Below, one piece after another: positions 15-27,581 of a stretch of DNA of 33,564 bases. Source of the stretch: Nitrospirota bacterium (GTDB lineage Bacteria > Nitrospirota > Thermodesulfovibrionia > JACRGW01 > JBFLZU01); the NCBI GenBank assembly GCA_040756155.1, contig JBFLZU010000029.1, positions 13,104 through 46,667 of the forward strand. Direction: 5' to 3'. The position numbers and the translations under genes are program-made. The notes below the pieces were generated by a model. The model saw only the letters and a program-made list of their open reading frames with translations. It searched no databases and had not been told where the DNA came from. Numbering within the stretch: the first letter of the stretch is position 1; every line of letters starts with the position of its first letter.

Positions 15-1376
15 CTAATTCTCTGTCCTTCTCACAGGAACAAGAATAGCTACTGTCCTGTTATCCTCGTTGAGATATTTTTTTGCAACCATCTGAATAT
101 CTTCCTTTGTTACAGCCCTTATTCCTGGCAGATATTTCTCTATATACCTCCAGTCACCGAGACTTTCAGCCATCCCGAGTAATTCAGCCTGAAAGAATAT
201 AGAATCCTGAGACATAAGAAACGATGCTTCTATCTGGTTTTTTGCCTTCTCGAGTTCTTTATCTGATACATATTCTTTTTTAAATCGTTCAATCTCATTG
301 TAAAGTGAGTCTTCAACCATTTGTATGTCCTTTCCTATAGTTGCGGCAGCATAAAGATAAAAAAGCGTAGAGTCCTTTGACAGCCCTGAATAATCCCCAC
401 CTGCGTATAGTGCTATCTGTTTTTCATATACGAGATTCCTGTAAATTCTGGAGCTTTTACCACTCGAAAGTATGGTTGAGAGAACCTCGAGGGCATAACC
501 GTCTTTATCCTTCAGCGTTGGGACATGATAACCTGCAATAAGATAAGGGAGTTCAGCCTCTTTCTTAATCTTTATCCTTCGTTCTCCCTTTTGTTGAGGT
601 TCAGCGGGGGCCTCTTGTGGTGGAATATTTGCAGGCCGGAGTGAGCCAAAGTGTTTTTCAATATTGCGGAGAAGGCTCTGGGTATCAAAATCACCTGCAA
701 CAACTATGGTTGCATTATTAGGGGCATAATAAGTTTTATAATAGTTATAGAGGTCTTCTCTCGTTATAGATTTGATGTCTGACATCCAGCCAATTACAGG
801 ATTTCTGTAAGGATGGGTTTTGTAAGCAACTGATAGAAGTTCTTCATAAGCAGTATTCTGAGGGTCGTCTTCATACCTCATTCTTCTTTCTTCAGCGACT
901 ACATCCTTTTCTGATGCCACCTCTTTAGGTTCAAGGCGGAGGTTTACCATCCTGTCAGCCTCAAGATCGAGTGAGATGTGCAGCCTGTCTGATGCAAGTA
1001 TCTGATAATAAGCAGTATAATCCTTTGTTGTAAAGGCATTATCTCTTCCACCATTTCTCTGTATTATCTTTGAAAACTCGGTTGGTTTAATCTTATCTGT
1101 TCCTTTAAACATCATATGCTCAAGCAGATGAGACATCCCTGTCTTACCTGAAGGTTCATTCCTTGAGCCAACCTTATACCATACCTGAAATGTAACGATA
1201 GGAATCCGATTGTCTGATAGAGTTAACACCTTAAGTCCATTTGGCAGTATGGTCTCTTTAACTTCACCAGCATGGAGAACAGTGAACAGTGAAAACAGGA
1301 TTAAAGGGGTAAGGATTAAAGGAATAAGATTACCCCTTATCGCTTTAATCCATAATCCTATCTTACTCGATTCCAT
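15..1376 (-). CDS. M16 family zinc metallopeptidase, exported
   Basis: 453 aa, about the usual length for a single-chain bacterial M16B (processing-peptidase-like) protease. The inverted zinc motif HLLEH is at residues 83-87, with the distal Glu expected in the AEERR segment near 161-165, and the conserved NGGRDNAFTTKDYTAY stretch lies near 108-123. The N-terminus has a basic patch and a hydrophobic core ending near HAGE, so it is probably secreted or periplasmic. The core is encoded by a 15-bp DNA repeat (see 1298-1327). The start overlaps the end of pilR by 14 bp, so the gene is probably the last cistron of the pil operon. Substrate unknown. M16 proteases often occur as pairs; only one is visible here. 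The family call is secure, but a pilus-related role is only inferred from position. Confidence 0.93.
   Translation of the reverse strand: MESSKIGLWIKAIRGNLIPLILTPLILFSLFTVLHAGEVKETILPNGLKVLTLSDNRIPIVTFQVWYKVGSRNEPSGKTGMSHLLEHMMFKGTDKIKPTEFSKIIQRNGGRDNAFTTKDYTAYYQILASDRLHISLDLEADRMVNLRLEPKEVASEKDVVAEERRMRYEDDPQNTAYEELLSVAYKTHPYRNPVIGWMSDIKSITREDLYNYYKTYYAPNNATIVVAGDFDTQSLLRNIEKHFGSLRPANIPPQEAPAEPQQKGERRIKIKKEAELPYLIAGYHVPTLKDKDGYALEVLSTILSSGKSSRIYRNLVYEKQIALYAGGDYSGLSKDSTLFYLYAAATIGKDIQMVEDSLYNEIERFKKEYVSDKELEKAKNQIEASFLMSQDSIFFQAELLGMAESLGDWRYIEKYLPGIRAVTKEDIQMVAKKYLNEDNRTVAILVPVRRTEN
1298..1327 (+). repeat. 15-bp tandem repeat within the M16 signal peptide
   Basis: GGATTAAAGG occurs at 1298-1307 and 1313-1322, as two units of 15 bp (GGATTAAAGGGGTAA then GGATTAAAGGAATAA). 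Read on the minus strand the repeat encodes the alternating Leu/Ile/Pro residues of the signal-peptide core. Just upstream (1277-1290) GAACAGT is repeated with a 7-bp period. Similar paired GGATTAA motifs occur at 6408-6429 and 8164-8186. Confidence 0.7.
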
Positions 1377-2721
1377 ATTTCTTCAACCTGTGTCTCAGCG
1401 ATCTGAAACTTATATTCAAAAGTCTTGCTGCTTTTGTTTTTACGCCATCTGCTGCCCTGAGTGCCTTTAAGAGTAGATCCTTTTCAACATCTCTCACTAT
1501 ACTATCAAGGTAGATGCCTTCCTCCGGCATATCGGTCTGAAGTAATTGACCTGAGAGCCTTTCCTGCCTAACTTCTTCTGGTAAATGAATGGGTTGTATA
1601 ACCTCATCATCTGTCAATGCTACAATCCTCTCAATTGTATTCTCAAGTTCTCTTACATTTCCTTTCCAATCTGCCTTAAGCATTACATCCATTGCTTCTG
1701 GTGATAAGCGTTTAGTCCTGTGAGGGGAGTATTTCTTCAGAAAATATTCTATAAGAAGAGGTATATCTTCACGACGTTCCCTAAGTGGAGGAATATGAAT
1801 AGGGATGACATTGAGTCTGTAGTAAAGATCTTCTCTAAATCTGTCATTTAGGATGTCATCCTTCAAATCCCGGTTTGTTGCTGCTATTATCCTTACATCT
1901 ACACCGATATCCTCTGTTCCACCGATTCTTCTGAAAGTGTGGTCTTCAAGAAACCTGAGGAGTTTGACCTGAATAAATTGTGGTGTCTCCCCTATTTCAT
2001 CAAGGAATATTGTTCCACTATCAGCAATCTCAAAGAGACCCTTTTTATTTGAAATAGCACCTGTAAAAGACCCCTTCATGTGTCCGAAGAGTTCACTCTC
2101 GAGGAGTGTCTCTGGCATAGCACCACAGTTTATAGCCACAAAGGGCGCCTCTGTCCTCTGGCTTAAACTATGTATGCCTCTCGCCACAATCTCTTTCCCT
2201 GTGCCACTCTCTCCAGTAATAAGCACACTGCTCATGGTTGTAGCTACCTTCTGTATTAAAGAGAAGAGATTTTGCATTGCGGGGCTTTTACCAATGATAT
2301 TCTCAATACCAAACCGTCTTCTCAGCTCCTGTTTTAGGAGGATATTCTCCTTTCTTAGTTGCTTTTTCTCAAGTGCATTCTTAATAACCAGTCTTATCTC
2401 ATTGACATTGAATGGCTTGGTTATGTAATCGTATGCCCCTGCTGTAAGTGCTTCTCTGGCTGATTCGACTGATGCAAAGGCTGTAATCATCAAGACAATA
2501 GTCTCTGGTGATAACTCTTTTGTTGTCTTAAGAACCTTTATACCGTCTATCCCTTGCATTCTTATATCTGTAATCACAAGATCAAATATCTCTTTTTTTA
2601 GAATCTCCACTGCCTTTTCACCACTATCTGCAACAGAGATATTATATCCTTCCTTCTCAAGTATAAACTGTAAAACATCCCGCATTCCTTTTTCGTCGTC
2701 TACTACTAATATCTTAGCCAT
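1363..2721 (-). CDS. pilR: sigma-54-dependent response regulator, PilR/NtrC type
   Basis: 452 aa with three domains. A receiver occupies residues 1-120 (acidic pair near 8-9, phosphoacceptor Asp52 in VITDIRM, Lys102). The AAA+ sigma-54 activation domain spans about 142-375 (Walker A GESGTGKE at 170-177, sigma-54 contact loop GSFTGA at 217-222, Walker B FLDEIGE). A Fis-type helix-turn-helix ends the protein. The contact loop reads GSFTGA rather than the usual GAFTGA, a conservative change. It lies directly downstream of a PilS-like kinase and the pil motor genes, so it is expected to activate pilin transcription with RpoN, although no pilA is in this window. It overlaps the M16 gene by 14 bp. 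NtrC-family assignment is certain; the PilR name rests on context. Confidence 0.93.
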   Translation of the reverse strand: MAKILVVDDEKGMRDVLQFILEKEGYNISVADSGEKAVEILKKEIFDLVITDIRMQGIDGIKVLKTTKELSPETIVLMITAFASVESAREALTAGAYDYITKPFNVNEIRLVIKNALEKKQLRKENILLKQELRRRFGIENIIGKSPAMQNLFSLIQKVATTMSSVLITGESGTGKEIVARGIHSLSQRTEAPFVAINCGAMPETLLESELFGHMKGSFTGAISNKKGLFEIADSGTIFLDEIGETPQFIQVKLLRFLEDHTFRRIGGTEDIGVDVRIIAATNRDLKDDILNDRFREDLYYRLNVIPIHIPPLRERREDIPLLIEYFLKKYSPHRTKRLSPEAMDVMLKADWKGNVRELENTIERIVALTDDEVIQPIHLPEEVRQERLSGQLLQTDMPEEGIYLDSIVRDVEKDLLLKALRAADGVKTKAARLLNISFRSLRHRLKKYGIE

Positions 2722-14754: not shown

Positions 14755-15540
14755 TCATATCTGTGTGATTTTCGATGCGGTATCCTGCATCCGTGTTTCA
14801 AATACACCATAAAGTATCTCCCACATCCTCGGATATTTTTTTATAAGTCCTTCAAGAACTTCTTTTTTGAGCTCAAAGATCTCACACTCTGTTTCGGCAG
14901 TAACTGTAGCAATCCTCGGTTTTCCTGTAAGCACACTGCCTTCACCGAAGAAATCGTTTTCTATCAATATGGCTAATTGTATCTCCTTATCATCAAAACT
15001 TGTAGTAACACTCACTTTTCCCTGTTTTATTATATATATGGAATCTCCATACTCGCCTTCTCTGATAATAGGCGTACCTGCAGTAACTTTCCGTTGTATC
15101 ATCGTCTTGTAAAGGGAGGTAATATCGTCTTCACTGAAGTCTGTAAACAGAGATAGCTTGGTGACAAGTTCTTCTCCTGCCTTCGGTGTAGCTACCATTG
15201 CAGCAAGTTCAGGTTGTCCACACAGAATAGAAAGTTTTCTTGTGGCATCCCCAGAGGCAGGATCAAGCTTCAAAATCATCTTATATGTCGTGATTGCCTT
15301 GATGGCAAAACCCTTCTTCTCAAAAAGTTCACCAGCAGTAAAGTATGATTTAACAGCATTTGTTAACTCATTTATCCTCGAATATATGTCACCGAGCCTC
15401 AGATGGAACATGGCGTTCTCTGACTCCATGGCTATAAGTTTCTTCATCTCATCAATGGCATTCTTCCATTTCCCTTTTCTCATATTATTGAGAAAGGTTT
15501 CGTGTATCGTCTCTCTACTTTCCTTCTTTCCCCAGATCAT
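14755..15540 (-). CDS. TPR and cyclic-nucleotide-binding domain protein
   Basis: 261 aa from the preferred start. The N-terminal third holds about two to three TPR-like helical hairpins (NAMFHLRLGDIYSRINELTN and AIKAITTYKMILKLDP segments). The C-terminal half is a cNMP-binding beta barrel (GTPIIREGEYGDSIYIIKQGKVSV) with the phosphate-binding cassette FFGEGSVLTGKPRIATVTA, which keeps the Glu and Arg expected for ligand binding. There is no DNA-binding domain, so it is not a CRP-type regulator. The frame is open to a TTG at 15555, but ATG at 15540 has AGGA six bases upstream and is preferred. The start overlaps tatA by 26 bp. Ligand and partner unknown. Confidence 0.85.
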   Translation of the reverse strand: MIWGKKESRETIHETFLNNMRKGKWKNAIDEMKKLIAMESENAMFHLRLGDIYSRINELTNAVKSYFTAGELFEKKGFAIKAITTYKMILKLDPASGDATRKLSILCGQPELAAMVATPKAGEELVTKLSLFTDFSEDDITSLYKTMIQRKVTAGTPIIREGEYGDSIYIIKQGKVSVTTSFDDKEIQLAILIENDFFGEGSVLTGKPRIATVTAETECEIFELKKEVLEGLIKKYPRMWEILYGVFETRMQDTASKITQI

Positions 15541-15673
15541 CTTTTTTCCTGCCAATTCCTTTTTTTAGGTATGAAACCAACCTCCCAAAACCCGTTCCAA
15601 TCTCAGGGATTTTCTTTGGACGGAGTAATACCATAATTATCAATATAATCAATAATAATTCTAACAGCCCCAT
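15515..15673 (-). CDS. tatA: TatA/E-like twin-arginine translocase subunit (small)
   Basis: 52 aa, too short for many gene finders. MGLLELLLIILIIMVLL forms one membrane helix; RPKKIPEIGTGFGRLVSYLKK then gives the hinge and amphipathic helix of TatA, followed by a short charged tail. The usual FGPKKLPE hinge reads LRPKKIPE, so the Phe-Gly pair is replaced. The ATG is at 15673 and TAG at 15515-15517; the 3' end overlaps the next gene by 26 bp, a sign of translational coupling. No tatC is in the window. TatA forms the protein-conducting assembly for folded, often cofactor-containing exported proteins. TatA versus TatE or TatB cannot be decided from this sequence alone. Confidence 0.8.
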   Translation of the reverse strand: MGLLELLLIILIIMVLLRPKKIPEIGTGFGRLVSYLKKGIGRKKDDLGKEGK

Positions 15674-15724: not shown

Positions 15725-16366
15725 TTACACTTTTTTTACATAGATTTCTCGTGCTATCTCTGAATCGAGGGCAATTGTTGTTTCGTCTATCTGTATGACA
15801 AATGTTGGGTTTTTCTGGTGAAGTTTTACTATTGTCCCAGGTATTACGCCAAGTGCACCGAGACGATCAAGACGATTATGGTCTGAAGGAACCATAAAGA
15901 CGATCTTACCACTTTCTCCGATATCGAGGTCGCTGAGTCTCAGGATCAGAGATTTTACCTCAATACTGAATTTATTACAACATTCGTTTCTCGGGATAGG
16001 ACGTCCATGAGGACACACTGGCGGGTGTCCGAGTAAGGTGCATATACTATCTGCTACCCTTGAGTCGAGAATATGTTCAAACTGGCAGGCTGTAGACTCA
16101 TCTATATCGAGTTCAAAGACATCGGCAAAAAGCCTTTCTGCAAGACGATGGCGCCTTATTATATCACTTGCCCGCTTTTCTCCTTCTTTTTTAAACCTGA
16201 CAGTGTCCCCCGATATCTCAATAAAACCTTCTTCAACAAGATGTTCGAGCAATTTTTCTATATCATCTTCCTCTACTCTTTTAATCAACTCTTTAACGCC
16301 TGATATCCCTTCTTCCCTTAATATCCATATAAGCTCAAGTATCTCATCAAGGCTCTGCTGATTCAT
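15725..16366 (-). CDS. DtxR/MntR-family metal-dependent regulator with FeoA domain
   Basis: 213 aa. The N-terminal winged helix (1-65) is followed by the DtxR dimerisation and metal-binding domain (RRHRLAERLFADVFELD, STACQFEHILD, then HPPVCPHGRPIP), and a C-terminal FeoA/SH3-like domain (about 140-213, GESGKIVFMVPSDHNRLDRLGALGVIPGTIVKL). It lies 67 bp downstream of feoB on the same strand. No separate feoA gene is visible, so the fused FeoA-like domain might also serve FeoB, which is inference. Most likely an Fe(II)- or Mn(II)-responsive repressor of the feo genes. Which metal it senses cannot be read from sequence. Confidence 0.9.
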   Translation of the reverse strand: MNQQSLDEILELIWILREEGISGVKELIKRVEEDDIEKLLEHLVEEGFIEISGDTVRFKKEGEKRASDIIRRHRLAERLFADVFELDIDESTACQFEHILDSRVADSICTLLGHPPVCPHGRPIPRNECCNKFSIEVKSLILRLSDLDIGESGKIVFMVPSDHNRLDRLGALGVIPGTIVKLHQKNPTFVIQIDETTIALDSEIAREIYVKKV

Positions 16367-16433
16367 AGAATCTCCTTTTAAAATCTTATATCATATCTGT
16401 GGGTATAGATTCAACCCATTAAATTTTTAATCC

Positions 16434-18413
16434 TTAAAAGACGATATTCACCGTCCTTAAGATCCAGTTTAATATCCCACCAACTAAAAAGGCAAATGGG
16501 AAGATAAACCCTACCATCCAGAGTGCTATCTTAATTCCCCTTTCCTTGACTATCATAAAAAAGTTTGCAAGGCAGGGGATAAAGAGTGTTATAGTAACAA
16601 GTGAGACTATAACCTGAGTTGTATCTAAAAGTCCTTGTTCGCTCAAGGCAAAGAGTCCAGCAGCTCCATAGTCTCTTCTTAAAAATCCTACAATAAATGC
16701 CTCGGTGGCTTTTGCCGGAAGTCCAAGAAATCCTACAACCAGTGGTGAGGCTGTATCCTTTAACCAGCCAAGAACCTTGATTTTATCAAGGATAAATAAT
16801 ACCACTGTCCCGAGAACAAACAGGGGGACTGCCTCTCTTAGGTACCATTCAACCCTTCCAATAGTTTTCACAAAAAGATTTGACAGGTGAGGCTGCCTTA
16901 TTGGCGGCAGTTCAAGCAGAAAATCAGACTCTTTTCCCTTAAGTATCCTGGATGACAGGAGGCCTACAAGAATCATAACACCTGCAACTATTCCACCCCA
17001 TATATATGTCGCTATTGGTGGCTGTTTACCGAGCATGCCGAGTATAACACCAATCTGGGCAGAGCAGGGCACTCCGAGCGCTAAAAGTAATGTGACTATT
17101 ATCCGTTCCTTTTTTGTCTCGAGTATCCTTGTAGTCATAGTTGCCATTGTGTCACAGCCAAGGCCAAGAACCATGGGAAGGACTGCTTTTCCGTTAAGCC
17201 CCATCAATTTGAATAACCTATTTAACATCATAGCAAGTCGTGGTAGATAGCCTGAATCTTCAAGTATCCCGAAGGCTATGAAGAAAGTGCCTGTTATTGG
17301 TAGTACTATAGCTATTGCGTATGTGATAGCCATTGTTATAATCCCGTATTCTCCAATGAGAATCTCCTGGAAAAACTTTACTGGCAATAGTAGTGTAACT
17401 ATTTCTGTTGCCCACGGGTTTATGTATTTCCCAAAGATGGTGTCTTCAAGGAGATCAACAAGTGTGCCTGCACCAAATTTACCGACAAACTGGTAGATTC
17501 CGTAGAGAACAATCAAAAGGATAGGAAATCCCACTACAGGATGCATCGACCATGTTCCAAGTTTGATACTGAGTAAACTTCCTTGACTGCCAAGTTTCTT
17601 TGAGACGCTGTTTATTATTATCTCCGCTTTTTTCAACCTCATTTGATTTATAACCAAGCTCAGTGGTTGATTATATCTTGACTGAAGTTGTTGTCTTATA
17701 AGTTCTATCTGATTAATAATCCTATCATCAAGTTCAGAATGAAGCCACCACTTCAGACTCTCATCACCTGCAAGGATCATAAGGGCAAGTGAGCGTCTTG
17801 AGATATTCGATTCTGGAAGAAGATGAATAATCTCTTCTATGGCTTTTTCAATCAAATCGTCATATCTTATTGATATTTTTGACTTCTGAGGCTGCAAAAG
17901 GGAATCTCTGAGTTTCTCGATCCCTTTTTTCTGTACCGCTATAGTCGAAATAACGCTGATGCCGAGTATCTCTGAAAGCAATGACTCATTAATAAGAATA
18001 CCACTACTTTCAGCCTCATCTCCCATATTCAGGTCAAGGATTAATGGAAGTCCCATTTCCGAAATCTGTACCGTAAGGAGGAGTGTTCTTCTAAGATTCT
18101 TTGCATCTGCAACCTGAACCACTGCATAAGGCTTTTCTTTTAAGAATATATCCCTTGTAACCTTTTCATCCTCTGAAAGTGGTGTAAGGGTATTAACCCC
18201 AGGAGTATCGATGAACAGCATCCTTCTTTTACCTATAGTTGTATTACCATATGTAACCTCAACGGTAGTCCCGGGGTAATTTGATACCGTAACATATTTC
18301 CCGGTAATGAGCCCGAAGATGGCACTTTTGCCAACATTAGGATTACCAACAAGGATGACCTTTGGTGTTTTTCTTTCTGTGTCTTTTAATGATGGTGTAG
18401 AATGCTGATGCAT
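16434..18413 (-). CDS. feoB: ferrous iron transporter FeoB
   Basis: 659 aa, slightly shorter than E. coli FeoB (773). The cytoplasmic G domain has G1 GNPNVGKS (23-30), switch residues NYPGTTVE, G3 DTPG and G4 NMGD. A helical spacer follows, then a membrane domain with about eight or more helices and the two gate segments (GLGCDTMATMTTRILETKKER and GFLRRDYGAAGLF), plus the VPCSAQ motif. It imports Fe(II) across the inner membrane under low-oxygen conditions. ATG follows AAGGA by 8 bp. A Fur-box-like palindrome (18429-18447) lies 16-34 bp before the start, so repression by iron-loaded Fur is expected. No feoA or feoC is next to it. Confidence 0.96.
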   Translation of the reverse strand: MHQHSTPSLKDTERKTPKVILVGNPNVGKSAIFGLITGKYVTVSNYPGTTVEVTYGNTTIGKRRMLFIDTPGVNTLTPLSEDEKVTRDIFLKEKPYAVVQVADAKNLRRTLLLTVQISEMGLPLILDLNMGDEAESSGILINESLLSEILGISVISTIAVQKKGIEKLRDSLLQPQKSKISIRYDDLIEKAIEEIIHLLPESNISRRSLALMILAGDESLKWWLHSELDDRIINQIELIRQQLQSRYNQPLSLVINQMRLKKAEIIINSVSKKLGSQGSLLSIKLGTWSMHPVVGFPILLIVLYGIYQFVGKFGAGTLVDLLEDTIFGKYINPWATEIVTLLLPVKFFQEILIGEYGIITMAITYAIAIVLPITGTFFIAFGILEDSGYLPRLAMMLNRLFKLMGLNGKAVLPMVLGLGCDTMATMTTRILETKKERIIVTLLLALGVPCSAQIGVILGMLGKQPPIATYIWGGIVAGVMILVGLLSSRILKGKESDFLLELPPIRQPHLSNLFVKTIGRVEWYLREAVPLFVLGTVVLFILDKIKVLGWLKDTASPLVVGFLGLPAKATEAFIVGFLRRDYGAAGLFALSEQGLLDTTQVIVSLVTITLFIPCLANFFMIVKERGIKIALWMVGFIFPFAFLVGGILNWILRTVNIVF

Positions 18414-18428
18414 TTAGTTTTCCTTATT

Positions 18429-18447
18429 GAAATTAATTATCATTTTC
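18429..18447 (-). promoter_or_regulatory. candidate Fur box upstream of feoB
   Basis: Minus-strand sequence GAAAATGATAATTAATTTC matches 15 of 19 positions of the classical Fur box and is flanked by a further TT/AA symmetric pair (23-bp imperfect palindrome, 18427-18449). It lies just upstream of the feoB ribosome-binding site. Confidence 0.75.
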
Positions 18448-18450
18448 AAT

Positions 18451-18595
18451 AATCTTCTAAAAAATTTACCCCGCACCTAGAAAGCCTCGCCTTTTAGGCG
18501 GGGTAAAAAAATATAGCAGGGGTGGGGTTTAAAGCCCCACCCGCGCAGTCCTCGCACCCCGCGAAAGTGGGGTGCGGGGTTTACTTTAGAAGATT
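18451..18595. repeat. 145-bp multi-hairpin element between fur and feoB
   Basis: The element is bounded by a perfect 11-bp inverted repeat (AATCTTCTAAA at 18451-18461, TTTAGAAGATT at 18585-18595) and a second 10-bp pair (ACCCCGCACC at 18468-18477, GGTGCGGGGT at 18571-18580). Inside are three hairpins: 18465-18474 with 18498-18507; GGGTGGGG with CCCCACCC around 18519-18542; and CGCACCCC (18553-18560) with GGGGTGCG (18569-18576). Arms can pair in more than one way. The arms are much more GC-rich than the flanks. It could act as a fur terminator, but the nested symmetric design looks like a mobile or structural repeat. Confidence 0.7.
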
Positions 18596-18601
18596 AAAGT
18601 T

Positions 18602-19027
18602 TCATCTGCATTTTGGACAGTATCCATAAAGTTCCATCTTGTGGTCATGTATAACAAAGTTATGTTCAATAGCAATTTCTTTTTGCAGTTCTTCTATCTT
18701 TTTATTCTCAAATTCAACTATCTTACCACAGTTCAGACACATTATATGGTCGTGATGTTTTTTCTCGGCAATATGTTCATATCTTGTATGTCCATTTTTA
18801 AAATGTCTTTCAGTTGCAAGTCCTCCCTTTGAAAGTAACTTGAGTGTTCTATAAACTGTAGAATAACCTATTTGAGGATGTTTTTTATTCATAATCCTGT
18901 ATAGTTCCTCTGTACTGACGTGTCCCTTAGTTGAAAAAAATGCATCGGCTATTGCAGTTCGCTGATGCGTAAGATTCATCCCCATTGTTGTTAGATATTG
19001 ATTGAAGTCTTTTACTCTTTTATTCAT
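18602..19027 (-). CDS. fur: Fur-family ferric uptake regulator
   Basis: 141 aa, normal length. The winged-helix N-terminal domain has LTHQRTAIADAFF and STVYRTLKLL; the metal-binding dimerisation domain has HFKNGHTRYEH, KKHHDHIMCLNCGKIVEF and a C-terminal CPKC, the two CxxC pairs giving the structural zinc site. Its own promoter (19088-19116) has a near-perfect Fur-box palindrome over the expected transcription start, so it is probably autoregulated. Fur proper is favoured over Zur or PerR because of these operators and the downstream feoB, though the metal cannot be proved from sequence. Good ribosome-binding site (AGGGGAAGG) before the ATG. Confidence 0.92.
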   Translation of the reverse strand: MNKRVKDFNQYLTTMGMNLTHQRTAIADAFFSTKGHVSTEELYRIMNKKHPQIGYSTVYRTLKLLSKGGLATERHFKNGHTRYEHIAEKKHHDHIMCLNCGKIVEFENKKIEELQKEIAIEHNFVIHDHKMELYGYCPKCR

Positions 19028-25484: not shown

Positions 25485-25657
25485 ATAATATTATATCAGA
25501 ACGCTTCTAAAACTTCATACATTTTTCTTGCAGAATGTAATTGATATAAACTATTATTATGACAAAAATCATACCATAACTCTCAGGATATGTTATTTTA
25601 ATGATATTAAGTCCTTGAGTAATTTAGGCTTAATAACAAAAGAGAAAGGAGAAGGAG

Positions 25658-25876
25658 ATGAAAGAGAAGGTAGAAGCAGTATTGGAGAGGTTAAGACCTG
25701 CTATACAGGCACATGGTGGTGATGTCGAACTTGTTGATGTAGCAGAGGGGGTTGTAAAGGTAAGGTTAACAGGTGCCTGTGGTGCATGTCCTATGTCTAT
25801 AATCACATTAAAAAATGGCATAGAAGCGGTACTGAAAGAAGAGATTCCAGAAGTGGTAAGTGTAGAATCGGCTTAA
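25658..25876 (+). CDS. NifU C-terminal domain Fe-S scaffold protein
   Basis: 72 aa, a stand-alone NifU_C (Nfu) domain. [17 protein letters not shown] and the cluster-binding CxxC in [20 protein letters not shown] are diagnostic. It carries or delivers [4Fe-4S] clusters in the cytoplasm. Preceded by the strong purine-rich site AGGAGAAGGAG just before ATG. It starts a short plus-strand run with the oxidase-like, DUF1858 and small cysteine genes, but 84 bp containing a palindrome separate it from the next gene, so it may be transcribed separately. Confidence 0.95.
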
Positions 25877-25891
25877 AAGATATACTGAAAC

Positions 25892-25909
25892 CTATGATAT
25901 GTATCATAG
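25892..25909 (+). promoter_or_regulatory. FNR/CRP-like palindrome upstream of the mini-oxidase gene
   Basis: CTATGATA-TG-TATCATAG is a perfect 8-bp inverted repeat. Its core ATGAT-N4-ATCAT differs from the FNR consensus TTGAT-N4-ATCAA only at the outer base of each half. Its centre is 60 bp before the start codon. A weak -10-like TATCTT (25930-25935) would put the centre near -41.5, the class II activator position. Binding is inference. Confidence 0.5.
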
Positions 25910-25960
25910 AAATCAATTAATAAATAAGATATCTTTATTCAGATTTGATGGGAGGGGGCA

Positions 25961-26371
25961 ATGGATAAAACAACGGTATGGTTCATAAAAGCCAGCATGA
26001 TCTATTTTGTCATAGGTGCCACAATAGGGCTATTCATTGCGATGTTGCCTGAATGGACAGGAATCTACAGGAGTATCCATGTTCATCTTAACCTTATAGG
26101 GTGGATGAGCATGATGATCTTCGGAGTAGGCTACCACATACTCCCAAGATTCAGTGGAAAACCACTTTTCAGTCCATCCCTGGCAAGAGTTCAGTTCTGG
26201 CTTTCAAATATAGGTCTTGTGGGGATGTCATTTTCATGGGCATTTCTATACCACACACAATCAGCAGTCTATCAGTTTTCGCTCGTATTTTTTGCGCTGT
26301 TGGAAGTTATCGCTGTATATCTATTTGTGTATAATATATTCAAAACAATCCAGGCAGCTCCAGCTGCATAA
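25961..26371 (+). CDS. four-helix cbb3-oxidase-subunit-I-like membrane protein
   Basis: 136 aa with four hydrophobic helices (about 8-28, 40-62, 78-98, 106-126). The segment RSIHVHLNLIGWMSMMIFGVGYHILPRFSGKPLF resembles helices II-III of heme-copper oxidase subunit I, including the H-x-H-x-N-x-x-G pattern that carries a heme ligand in the full enzyme, and GVGYHILPRF. The other eight or so helices and the CuB site are absent, so it cannot be a complete oxidase. It may bind heme or work with other redox proteins. Starts at ATG after GGGAGGGGG. The next gene's ribosome-binding site begins at its stop codon, implying co-transcription. Function unknown. Confidence 0.75.
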   Translation: MDKTTVWFIKASMIYFVIGATIGLFIAMLPEWTGIYRSIHVHLNLIGWMSMMIFGVGYHILPRFSGKPLFSPSLARVQFWLSNIGLVGMSFSWAFLYHTQSAVYQFSLVFFALLEVIAVYLFVYNIFKTIQAAPAA

Positions 26372-26384
26372 GGAGGTAAAGGTG

Positions 26385-26594
26385 ATGGGAGATACAAAGA
26401 CAGTAATCACAAAAGATATGGTGATAGGTGACATCCTGAAGGAAAAGCCTTCTGCCGTAAGGGTAATTGAGAAGTATTTTGGACAGGGATGCTTCACATG
26501 TCCGGGAATGAAAATGGAAGACCTCAAATTCGGTGCAATGATGCACGGTATAGATCCAGAGGTAATAGTAAAGGAAATAAACGAGCTGGATTAA
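26385..26594 (+). CDS. DUF1858 redox-disulfide-type protein
   Basis: 69 aa. Matches the DUF1858 / hybrid-cluster-protein-associated domain: MVIGDILKEKPSAVRVIEKYFGQGCFTCPG with the CxxC pair at 36-39, then the typical MEDLKFGAMMHGIDPEVIVKEIN helix. AGGAGG (26371-26376) overlaps the stop region of the upstream gene, 8 bp before the ATG. GTG at 26382 is an alternative. Longer upstream frames run through the oxidase-like gene and are not real. These domains are proposed to act as small thiol redox or metal-binding modules; the exact role is not established. Confidence 0.85.
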   Translation: MGDTKTVITKDMVIGDILKEKPSAVRVIEKYFGQGCFTCPGMKMEDLKFGAMMHGIDPEVIVKEINELD

Positions 26595-26620
26595 TTGGCA
26601 ATTGATGGAGAAGATCGTTG

Positions 26621-26755
26621 ATGGAAGAAAAACATGAATGCCTCAACTGTAAGAATACCAGTGAGAATATAGTTCTTTTGGTCTGCGAATACCAGGGAAT
26701 GACAAAATGGGTATGTGTTCGCTGTCTGCCTATACTCATACATGGGGCACACTAA
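26621..26755 (+). CDS. 44-aa cysteine-rich protein of unknown function
   Basis: Very short frame: MEEKHECLNCKNTSENIV then LLVCEYQGMTKWVCVRCLP and a short His-containing tail. Two CxxC pairs (residues 7-10 and 32-35) plus Cys22 and several His residues suggest a zinc-ribbon or rubredoxin-like metal site. GGAG lies 10 bp before the ATG. It follows DUF1858 by 26 bp on the same strand and is the last gene before a convergent methyltransferase. No family is recognised with certainty. The cysteine spacing makes a chance open frame unlikely. Confidence 0.6.
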   Translation: MEEKHECLNCKNTSENIVLLVCEYQGMTKWVCVRCLPILIHGAH

Positions 26756-26762
26756 AAATGCA

Positions 26763-26845
26763 TAGCGAGCGGTTAGCGAGCGAATATGAAACAAAGATAA
26801 CTCCTTACATTTCGAAGCTGAAAGCTTCAAAATGTATAGCGAGCG
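26763..26845. repeat. TAGCGAGCG repeats and hairpin at the end of the trmN6-like gene
   Basis: TAGCGAGCG occurs at 26763-26771, 26774-26782 and 26837-26845. Between them ACATTT-C-GAAGCT (26807-26819) pairs with AGCTTC-A-AAATGT (26823-26835) around a GAA loop; the trmN6 stop codon overlaps its edge. The hairpin can act as a weak bidirectional terminator for the convergent genes. Confidence 0.6.
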
Positions 26846-27581
26846 CATTCCCCGCATCAGGGACACCATAAATCCTTTTCATCTCTGCAGAATAACCGCC
26901 ATTCTTATTATATACATATAGTGGTGGCATTACCTTTAGCTCCTGTTTTCCTTCCTTTACTCCTTCAACAAGCACCATCTTAGCCACACCACCTTCTTTT
27001 GAATGGACAAATCTCATCCTTTTAGGTTCAATCTCATAGTGTTTCATCTTCACCATTAGTTCAATCAGTCTTGCAGGATGGTATATTAGAGCGAGCCTTC
27101 CTTTTGCCCTTAGGAGATACCTCGAGATATCAAGTATATCGTCTATCTTCATCAGAAGTTCATGCCTTGCAATTGCCCTTTCGTCCTCAGGTGATATAAG
27201 CCCTGTCTTTGGTCTCCTGTATGGTGGATTACATAATACAAGTTCAAATGACTTCTCTGGCAGGATGCTATGAAGATCTTTTATGTCTGCATGGATTATC
27301 TCTATCTGTTTAGAAAGATTATTAAATTCGATATTTTTCTCTCCGAGCTCTACGAGGGTCTTCTGTATTTCCACCGCATATATCTTTGCATGAGGATATC
27401 TCCTTGCAAGTATCATCGAGATTATACAAACACCTGCACCAAGCTCAACAGCAGTAATGAGTCTCTTAAGATTGATAAAATATGGAAGGATTAGCGAATC
27501 GACAGAAAAGCGGTATCCGTGTTTTCGCTGAAAGATCTTCAGGTCAAGTATGCTATCAAGGGTTTCTTCATCACAGTGCAT
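26805..27581 (-). CDS. TrmN6-like tRNA1(Val) A37 N6-methyltransferase
   Basis: 258 aa. Rossmann-fold class I SAM methyltransferase: motif I VELGAGVCIISMILARRYP, acidic loop VEIQ, motif IV catalytic NPPY (LVLCNPPYRRP) typical of N6-adenine methylases, and a RFSVDSLILPYF N-terminal segment as in TrmN6/YfiC. In E. coli the enzyme modifies A37 of tRNA-Val; the target here is inferred. The last ~14 residues (NALAIHFEAFSFEM) are encoded by the repeat and hairpin region, so the C-terminus looks recently extended. The ribosome-binding GGGGAG sits in the 3' arm of the hairpin at 27590-27616. Downstream of atpC on the same strand. Confidence 0.85.
   Translation of the reverse strand: MHCDEETLDSILDLKIFQRKHGYRFSVDSLILPYFINLKRLITAVELGAGVCIISMILARRYPHAKIYAVEIQKTLVELGEKNIEFNNLSKQIEIIHADIKDLHSILPEKSFELVLCNPPYRRPKTGLISPEDERAIARHELLMKIDDILDISRYLLRAKGRLALIYHPARLIELMVKMKHYEIEPKRMRFVHSKEGGVAKMVLVEGVKEGKQELKVMPPLYVYNKNGGYSAEMKRIYGVPDAGNALAIHFEAFSFEM

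Follow-up and report, generated by a model that had tools for sequence, protein, structure and literature searches.

A single-unit heme-copper oxidase homologue in a candidate nitric oxide/nitrite-responsive operon of Nitrospirota

In the window (the whole 33,564-nucleotide stretch of Nitrospirota DNA that was analysed), four plus-strand genes run rightwards from a divergent ribF-like gene: nfu, the gene for a short homologue of heme-copper oxidases (HCOs), here called mini-HCO, a DUF1858 gene and a gene encoding a 44-aa protein (Table 1). The first-pass annotation had described the last three as a closely spaced unit under one palindrome, and this order and spacing are borne out, with 13 bp between the mini-HCO stop codon and the DUF1858 gene and a further 26 bp before the 44-aa gene. 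All parts of the unit as first described are present, but nfu and a second, near-identical palindromic site also belong to it. The operon is larger than first described and elsewhere also includes a ferredoxin gene and a regulator gene. Operator 1 is located on the 5' side of nfu, in the spacer that this gene shares with the divergent ribF gene. Short repeats of the type 'atagcgagcg'/'ttagcgagcg' are located directly 3' of the 44-aa gene (window 26755-26846). At some distance, on the minus strand, a likely iron cluster was recognized by eye (window 15725-19027), with a DtxR-like regulator carrying a FeoA-like tail, a FeoB-like protein and a Fur-like regulator. PADLOC returned no match.

Table 1. 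Coordinates of the operon features in the window and of related genes in other genomes
Feature	Position	Strand	Basis or remark
Operator 1 (CRP/FNR-family, predicted) TATGACAAAAATCATA	25558..25573	.	pattern match
Putative -10 TATTTT	25594..25599	+	~31 bp 3' of operator 1 centre; in line with the 83-site -10 enrichment
Nfu/NifU-C-like Fe-S scaffold protein, 72 aa, CxxC (GACGACP)	25658..25876	+	Pfam NifU 2.4e-29
Operator 2 (CRP/FNR-family, predicted) TATGATATGTATCATA, perfect palindrome	25893..25908	.	pattern match
Putative -10 TATCTT	25930..25935	+	32 bp 3' of operator 2 centre; class II (-41.5) arrangement
Mini-HCO, single-unit (4-helix) heme-copper-oxidase homologue, 136 aa; H40, H42, Y58, GxGYHxLPxFxG (invariant in the close family)	25961..26371	+	
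DUF1858/TIGR03980 small CxxC protein (GCFTCPG), 69 aa	26385..26594	+	profile matches
44-aa protein CxxC-x11-C-x9-CxxCLPxLIHGxH, predicted treble-clef/L24e-like zinc finger	26621..26755	+	26-homologue alignment
Two-[4Fe-4S] ferredoxin gene, Deltaproteobacteria-type genome	L183:3669-3857		equivalents in L181, L197, L209, L216, L224
Thermus mini-HCO homologue	L294:6962-7339; L326:9001-9378	+	
Two-unit fusions	L306:566-1411 (+); L307:1952-2812 (-); L308:288-1157 (-); L309:2108-2953 (-); L310:1962-2834 (-)		
Tandem single-unit genes	L311:674-1123 and 1125-1559	+	
Multi-unit HCO-like protein, 427 aa	L319:693-1976 (-); L320:2550-3833 (+)		

Mini-HCO matches Pfam COX1 (E 1.8e-9), and CcoN models align with it only around the helix-X HxH. 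When a family profile of 48 mini-HCO homologues was searched against PDB proteins, all three pseudo-repeats of CcoN (3mk7, 8smr and 9g6b) were matched, with a best E-value of 2.4e-13; repeat 3 was the best match (41-43 bits) vs 6-13 bits for repeats 1 and 2, and repeats 1 and 3 of NorB were matched likewise. Both the COX1 and the CcoN match place the protein in the HCO superfamily fold by homology to the catalytic-subunit core. H40 and H42 align with the HxH of CcoN helix X in repeat 3, the two histidines of which are ligands of heme b3 and heme b, while for the helix-II ligand of repeat 1 the alignments fit either H40 or H42. The AlphaFold2 monomer has four helices (pLDDT 91.5), and a Foldseek search with this model ranked HCOs at the top of the PDB, with E never below 0.2 and a TM score of approximately 0.5 or less. 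The repeat-wise profile matches, taken together with the four-helix model, argue that mini-HCO is one unit of the HCO fold rather than a random fragment. The first-pass reading of a four-helix homologue of cbb3 oxidase subunit I that keeps the histidine pattern without the catalytic site is therefore upheld by profile and alignment, whereas its description as fragment-like is not, the protein being a single evolutionary unit and not a broken piece of an oxidase.

A functional HCO or NO reductase is built on a 12-helix core with six ligand histidines and a CuB/FeB site, and mini-HCO, with 136 aa and four helices, is not such an enzyme. Of the ligand histidines, only the helix-X HxH pair is matched in the alignment; the CuB/FeB ligands of HCO repeat 2 have no counterpart, and mini-HCO is therefore not expected to reduce NO by the chemistry known from NO reductases. 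The positions of charged residues (K3, R63, K67, R76 and K128) suggest that the N- and C-termini are both inside, in which case helix 2 would carry H40 and H42 at its outer end, the arrangement seen in HCOs. Mini-HCO thus resembles CcoN and NorB in its helix unit, in the helix-X HxH represented by H40/H42 and in a predicted topology with ligands outward; unlike them, it has one unit instead of three, lacks the CuB/FeB ligands and belongs to an operon without a c-type cytochrome subunit.

Single-evolutionary-unit HCO homology (HCOH) proteins were reportedly named by Pei, Li, Kinch and Grishin (2014, Protein Sci 23:1220). They are said to be four-helix proteins encoded by separate genes, with conserved histidines and with closest similarity to the four C-terminal helices of HCO/NOR, and reportedly were proposed to form trimers with a role in denitrification or NO detoxification. 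Mini-HCO, an independent four-helix gene product nearest to helices IX-XII, would be of this kind, sharing with HCOH proteins the four helices, the gene of its own, the conserved histidines and the likeness to repeat 3. Since the single-unit kind was already described in 2014, the earlier statement that the module had not been characterized is only partly right, and it stands for the operon, the site and the regulator, which were not found described. To our knowledge, the HCOH work does not include an nfu-DUF1858-zinc-finger operon, an operator, a regulator or two-unit relatives. In the open-licence literature, no description was found of an nfu/DUF1858/44-aa operon, of a TATGATN4ATCATA regulon with a linked regulator, of two-unit proteins or of the fourth gene of the Thermus cluster, and no assigned function was found for single-unit HCO proteins. 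What appears to be new here is the operon, its regulator and site, the two-unit (8-helix) relatives and a fourth gene in a Thermus cluster, while the single-unit fold itself is known. The HCOH study of Pei et al. is cited in PMC4602095 and PMC11218638. Other small four-helix membrane proteins with weak similarity to HCOs are DUF2871 (Pfam PF11070), YgdD/DUF423 and MAPEG-type trimers; for YgdD, a homotrimer model that resembles the HCO core has been published (PMC4602095), and a weak match to DUF2871 (E 0.004) was seen for the Priestia homologue of mini-HCO.

Sixteen positions are invariant in the close family of mini-HCO (M1, G23, H40, H42, G47, M51, G55, G57, Y58, H59, L61, P62, F64, G66, F79 and F122). 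H40, H42 and Y58 remain invariant across all aligned single-unit homologues, including those of Thermus (Deinococcota) and Priestia (Bacillota), so that the check on histidine conservation proposed at the outset has a positive result, whereas H59 varies among the distant homologues. A scan of named genomes yielded at least 322 loci, with the best matches in Nitrospirota, Deltaproteobacteria-type, Chloroflexi and Gemmatimonadales MAGs; sampling beyond the phylum was uneven. As the product is short and has no catalytic site, the gene could be thought a decaying piece of a cbb3 oxidase, placed beside its neighbours by chance, and yet the ORF stands alone in 49 of 61 relatives, 115 of 296 genomes from the phylum match the profile and the frame is intact. 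The conservation of frame, residues, neighbours and operator rules out a decayed oxidase gene, which we consider vanishingly improbable.

The neighbours recur with some regularity. Within 2 kb of mini-HCO, the 49 homologous loci of relatives contain the DUF1858 gene in 39 cases, the 44-aa gene in 32 and nfu in 26, and the corresponding figures for 80 named loci, a set that shares some members with the first, are 61, 35 and 59. The gene-neighbourhood survey recommended by the first-pass annotation thus finds that mini-HCO and DUF1858, together with the 44-aa gene, co-occur across genomes. In other genomes, mini-HCO is divergent from the DUF1858-44-aa pair with the palindrome between them, and in Deltaproteobacteria-type genomes a gene for a two-[4Fe-4S] ferredoxin is inserted between nfu and mini-HCO. 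The DUF1858 protein matches Pfam DUF1858 (6.6e-15; 55.4 bits vs a cut-off of 32.2) and TIGR03980, 'hybrid cluster protein-associated redox disulfide domain' (5e-17; 61.7 vs 44.95). DUF1858 proteins have links to nitrogen-oxide respiration in other bacteria; one DUF1858 gene of Bradyrhizobium is among the strongly NnrR-dependent genes (-29-fold; PMC6710368). The 44-aa protein, for which no Pfam family scored above cut-off, was first noted for two CxxC pairs; these are confirmed, and the alignment of 26 homologues adds a fifth invariant cysteine and the near-invariant C-terminal H41 and H44. It is predicted to adopt a small zinc-finger-like fold (AlphaFold2 pLDDT 88), and the top Foldseek matches of the model were mainly zinc-finger folds, every one with E > 0.5. 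As neither the mini-HCO nor the 44-aa model had a significant PDB match, these searches add no weight to the sequence evidence.

The consensus palindrome TATGA[T/C]N4[A/G]TCATA is found near 47 of the 49 homologous mini-HCO loci, with a density of 0.67 per kb up to 1.2 kb from the mini-HCO gene vs 0.017 per kb outside (40-fold). The window has two 16-bp sites, where a first-order Markov null predicts 0.015. In its exact form, TATGATN4ATCATA, the site occurs 80 times in 26 genomes, compared with once for a reversed control pattern; the source genome (2.26 Mb) has three exact sites, operator 2 among them, and none of the reversed pattern. In most homologous loci, nfu is preceded by an equivalent of operator 1. 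Across 83 aligned sites of homologous loci, a TATAAT-like -10 element is enriched about 28.5-34.5 bp 3' of the operator centre, centred at approximately 31.5 bp, a distance that would put the operator centre at roughly -41.5, where class II activators bind. The predicted promoter sequence accordingly combines the two features of a class II CRP/FNR site, namely a centre at about -41.5 and a -10 element. The perfect palindrome close to the FNR consensus at an activator position, as originally noted, is therefore real and conserved across the homologous loci, although operator 2 differs from the FNR box TTGATN4ATCAA in the outer base.

A candidate for the protein that binds this palindrome is encoded outside the window (G000:C128:1386-2072) and belongs to the CRP/FNR family (cNMP_binding 1.5e-22; HTH_Crp_2 5.4e-19). 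Proteins of this C128 type are present in 60 of 61 relatives (E≤1e-20), mostly as close (approximately 50 % identical) orthologues, in which the recognition helix GTTVET(A/S/C)IR is invariant. In the helix TVETISR of E. coli FNR, V-E-x-x-x-R reads TGA and the serine reads the outer T; the C128-type helix keeps V-E-x-x-x-R and has the serine replaced, and would be predicted to fit ATGAT instead of TTGAT. The C128-type gene abuts mini-HCO in approximately 15 loci, mainly in convergent orientation. Some genomes with the regulator lack mini-HCO, and in G009, which is near-complete, both sites and mini-HCO are present with no regulator at E≤1e-20. Across 38 members of the regulator family, no N-terminal cysteine is conserved, while H137 is kept in 35. 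FNR proper has conserved cysteines for a [4Fe-4S] cluster, and the C128-type protein, being without them, is therefore not a classical Fe-S FNR. We infer that it binds the palindrome, with NO as the probable activator. It resembles HcpR, DNR and NnrR, which are Cys-less CRP/FNR regulators of hcp, nor and ferredoxin genes (PMC1274295), in lacking cysteines and in having hcp and nor as putative targets; their motifs (wTGTGAN6TCACAw, TTGACN4GTCAA, GTAACN4GTTAC and TTGATN4ATCAA; PMC1274295) do not match TATGATN4ATCATA and were rejected as the identity of the site. Three other CRP/FNR proteins of the source genome, C61, C96 and C117, were also rejected, as they have different helices (RQ..E, QQ..E and RE..R) and are unlinked to mini-HCO; among them, only the C117 gene is near another site. 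The window itself encodes, at 14755-15555 on the minus strand, a protein that by eye seems to consist of an N-terminal TPR-like part and a C-terminal cyclic-nucleotide-binding-like domain, with a DNA-binding domain not evident.

Regulon content was derived from pattern searches and inspection of individual retrieved stretches. The other two exact sites of the source genome precede norC-norB (L117) and a gene for a NIR_SIR/4Fe-4S protein (L118, G000:C117:14000-27500), where the site is followed by the 238-aa protein and then by the convergent gene of the CRP-type regulator with the RE..R helix. In relatives, the genes 3' of sites encode NorC-NorB, Hcp, CBS and HPP pairs, a nitroreductase-like protein, sulfite/nitrite reductase-like proteins and multiheme cytochromes similar to hydrazine dehydrogenase. 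HPP proteins are nitrite carriers. A sizeable share of the listed sites precedes genes without an evident role in nitrogen-oxide metabolism, and the motif alone is therefore not sufficient. The sites before NorCB, Hcp, HPP and nitrite/sulfite reductase-like genes nevertheless point to a nitric oxide/nitrite regulon and not to a plain oxygen regulon; of the oxygen or nitric oxide response initially suggested, nitric oxide/nitrite is retained and oxygen as such is not. An oxygen or redox module under a true FNR, with no tie to nitrogen oxides, would account for the resemblance of the site to the FNR box and for the similarity of the E. coli FNR recognition helix, but the Cys-less regulator family, a regulon rich in these nitrogen-oxide genes and the NsrR-type NO sensor above the Thermus counterpart make it very unlikely.

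The Thermus homologue (125 aa, on more than 20 plasmids) is 35 % identical to mini-HCO over 95 residues and keeps the motifs HAH and YHALPRF. Its gene stands last in the order nsrR-nsrS(ScdA_N)-nsrT(cupin)-mini homologue, with its start overlapping the nsrT end, and in strain SG0.5JP17-16 the cluster adjoins nir and nor genes. According to PMC5748679, the nsrRST cluster of T. thermophilus is NO-sensing and required for nitrite growth, and NsrR controls the nor and nir promoters; no mention of the fourth gene was found in its passages on the cluster. The nsrRST cluster has in the mini homologue a fourth gene that was overlooked and is annotated only as encoding a hypothetical protein. As in the window operon, a small Cys-domain protein (ScdA_N, weakly similar to DUF1858) is encoded beside a single-unit HCO homologue with an NO-linked regulator; the clusters differ in that Thermus has an Rrf2-type NsrR instead of a CRP/FNR protein and a cupin instead of the 44-aa protein, and lacks nfu.

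This setting bears on two further explanations. Mini-HCO could be a membrane redox or NO sensor or transducer that tunes an adjacent regulator, as proposed for DrpA/DrpB and NsrS/NsrT, and the place of the Thermus homologue within a regulatory cluster (PMC5748679), the loci in which the regulator gene abuts mini-HCO and the control of nitrate respiration by DrpB, which contains a DUF1858 domain (PMC6282519), are in line with this. However, the regulator is non-adjacent in most genomes and the Nfu and ferredoxin genes of the operon better suit a redox or repair role, so that a sensor seems unlikely. Alternatively, the protein may help to assemble, or be an accessory subunit of, a full-length enzyme whose genes lie at another place in the genome, either an NO reductase or a cbb3-type oxidase, and would then be comparable to NorH of the Thermus norCBH; NorCB of the source genome is under the same kind of site, and the Thermus homologue adjoins nor genes. 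Against this, NorH of Thermus is a separate 98-aa protein without HxH that has no motif in common with mini-HCO, and the two cannot be equated. Furthermore, in six near-complete genomes (G005, G011 and G047, 100 % complete; G043, 99 %; G020 and G055, 98 %) mini-HCO is the sole COX1-family match and no full-length member is present, which renders a mere HCO subunit role unlikely and the accessory explanation quite unlikely.

The explanation that we regard as reasonably probable is that of an NO/nitrite-responsive operon of Nitrospirota and some Deltaproteobacteria-type genomes, in which an oligomer of mini-HCO handles NO via heme and its partners repair the damage. The C128-type regulator, once activated by NO, would bind the class II palindrome and switch the operon on. 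Mini-HCO would insert into the membrane with both termini in the cytoplasm and oligomerize, probably into a trimer in which the three-fold core of HCOs is re-formed. A b-type heme close to the outer membrane face may then be bound by H42 together with H40 or with the H42 of the adjacent subunit, and the protein would accept electrons from quinol or ferredoxin and bind or reduce NO. Nfu, the DUF1858 protein and the 44-aa protein might protect or repair the Fe-S and thiol proteins harmed by NO. Heme binding, NO handling and the trimer state of mini-HCO are all inferred. The more specific proposal of a free-standing one-third HCO, acting as a homotrimer with b-type heme at subunit interfaces and handling NO in bacteria without a full-length oxidase or NO reductase of the superfamily, is put forward only tentatively; if true, one-, two- and three-unit proteins would form a living series for the assembly or dismantling of heme-copper oxidases.

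For the single-unit HCO proteins, a prediction now a decade old, the locus supplies a regulator, an operator, a candidate stimulus and fixed partners, which makes their role open to direct testing. Should they bind heme in oligomeric form, this would have a bearing on the evolution of NO reductases and respiratory oxidases. In addition, the operator delimits a candidate regulon for NO/nitrite in a large, mainly uncultured bacterial class, and the Thermus homologue draws attention to an overlooked gene of an NO-sensing cluster in a genetically tractable organism.

Proteins with more than one unit were found among the relatives. Two-unit (8-helix) proteins of 281-290 aa are encoded in five Nitrospirota genomes, with H42 present in each unit and H40 in one unit only. 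Such a pattern would match a shared heme held by the H42 of adjacent units, with H40 having a second function. In one genome, two different single-unit genes lie in tandem, possibly encoding a heteromer, and in two genomes a 427-aa multi-unit HCO-like protein is encoded next to the mini-HCO gene and the regulator. A haloarchaeal multi-unit HCO-like protein without a Pfam match (L296:5920-7287, plus strand) is flanked by three DUF2249 genes, and the multi-unit HCO-like proteins of Nitrospirota and haloarchaea (427-455 aa) have a similar C-terminal LY[KH][IV][IL]PF..W..RY.D..GLE.
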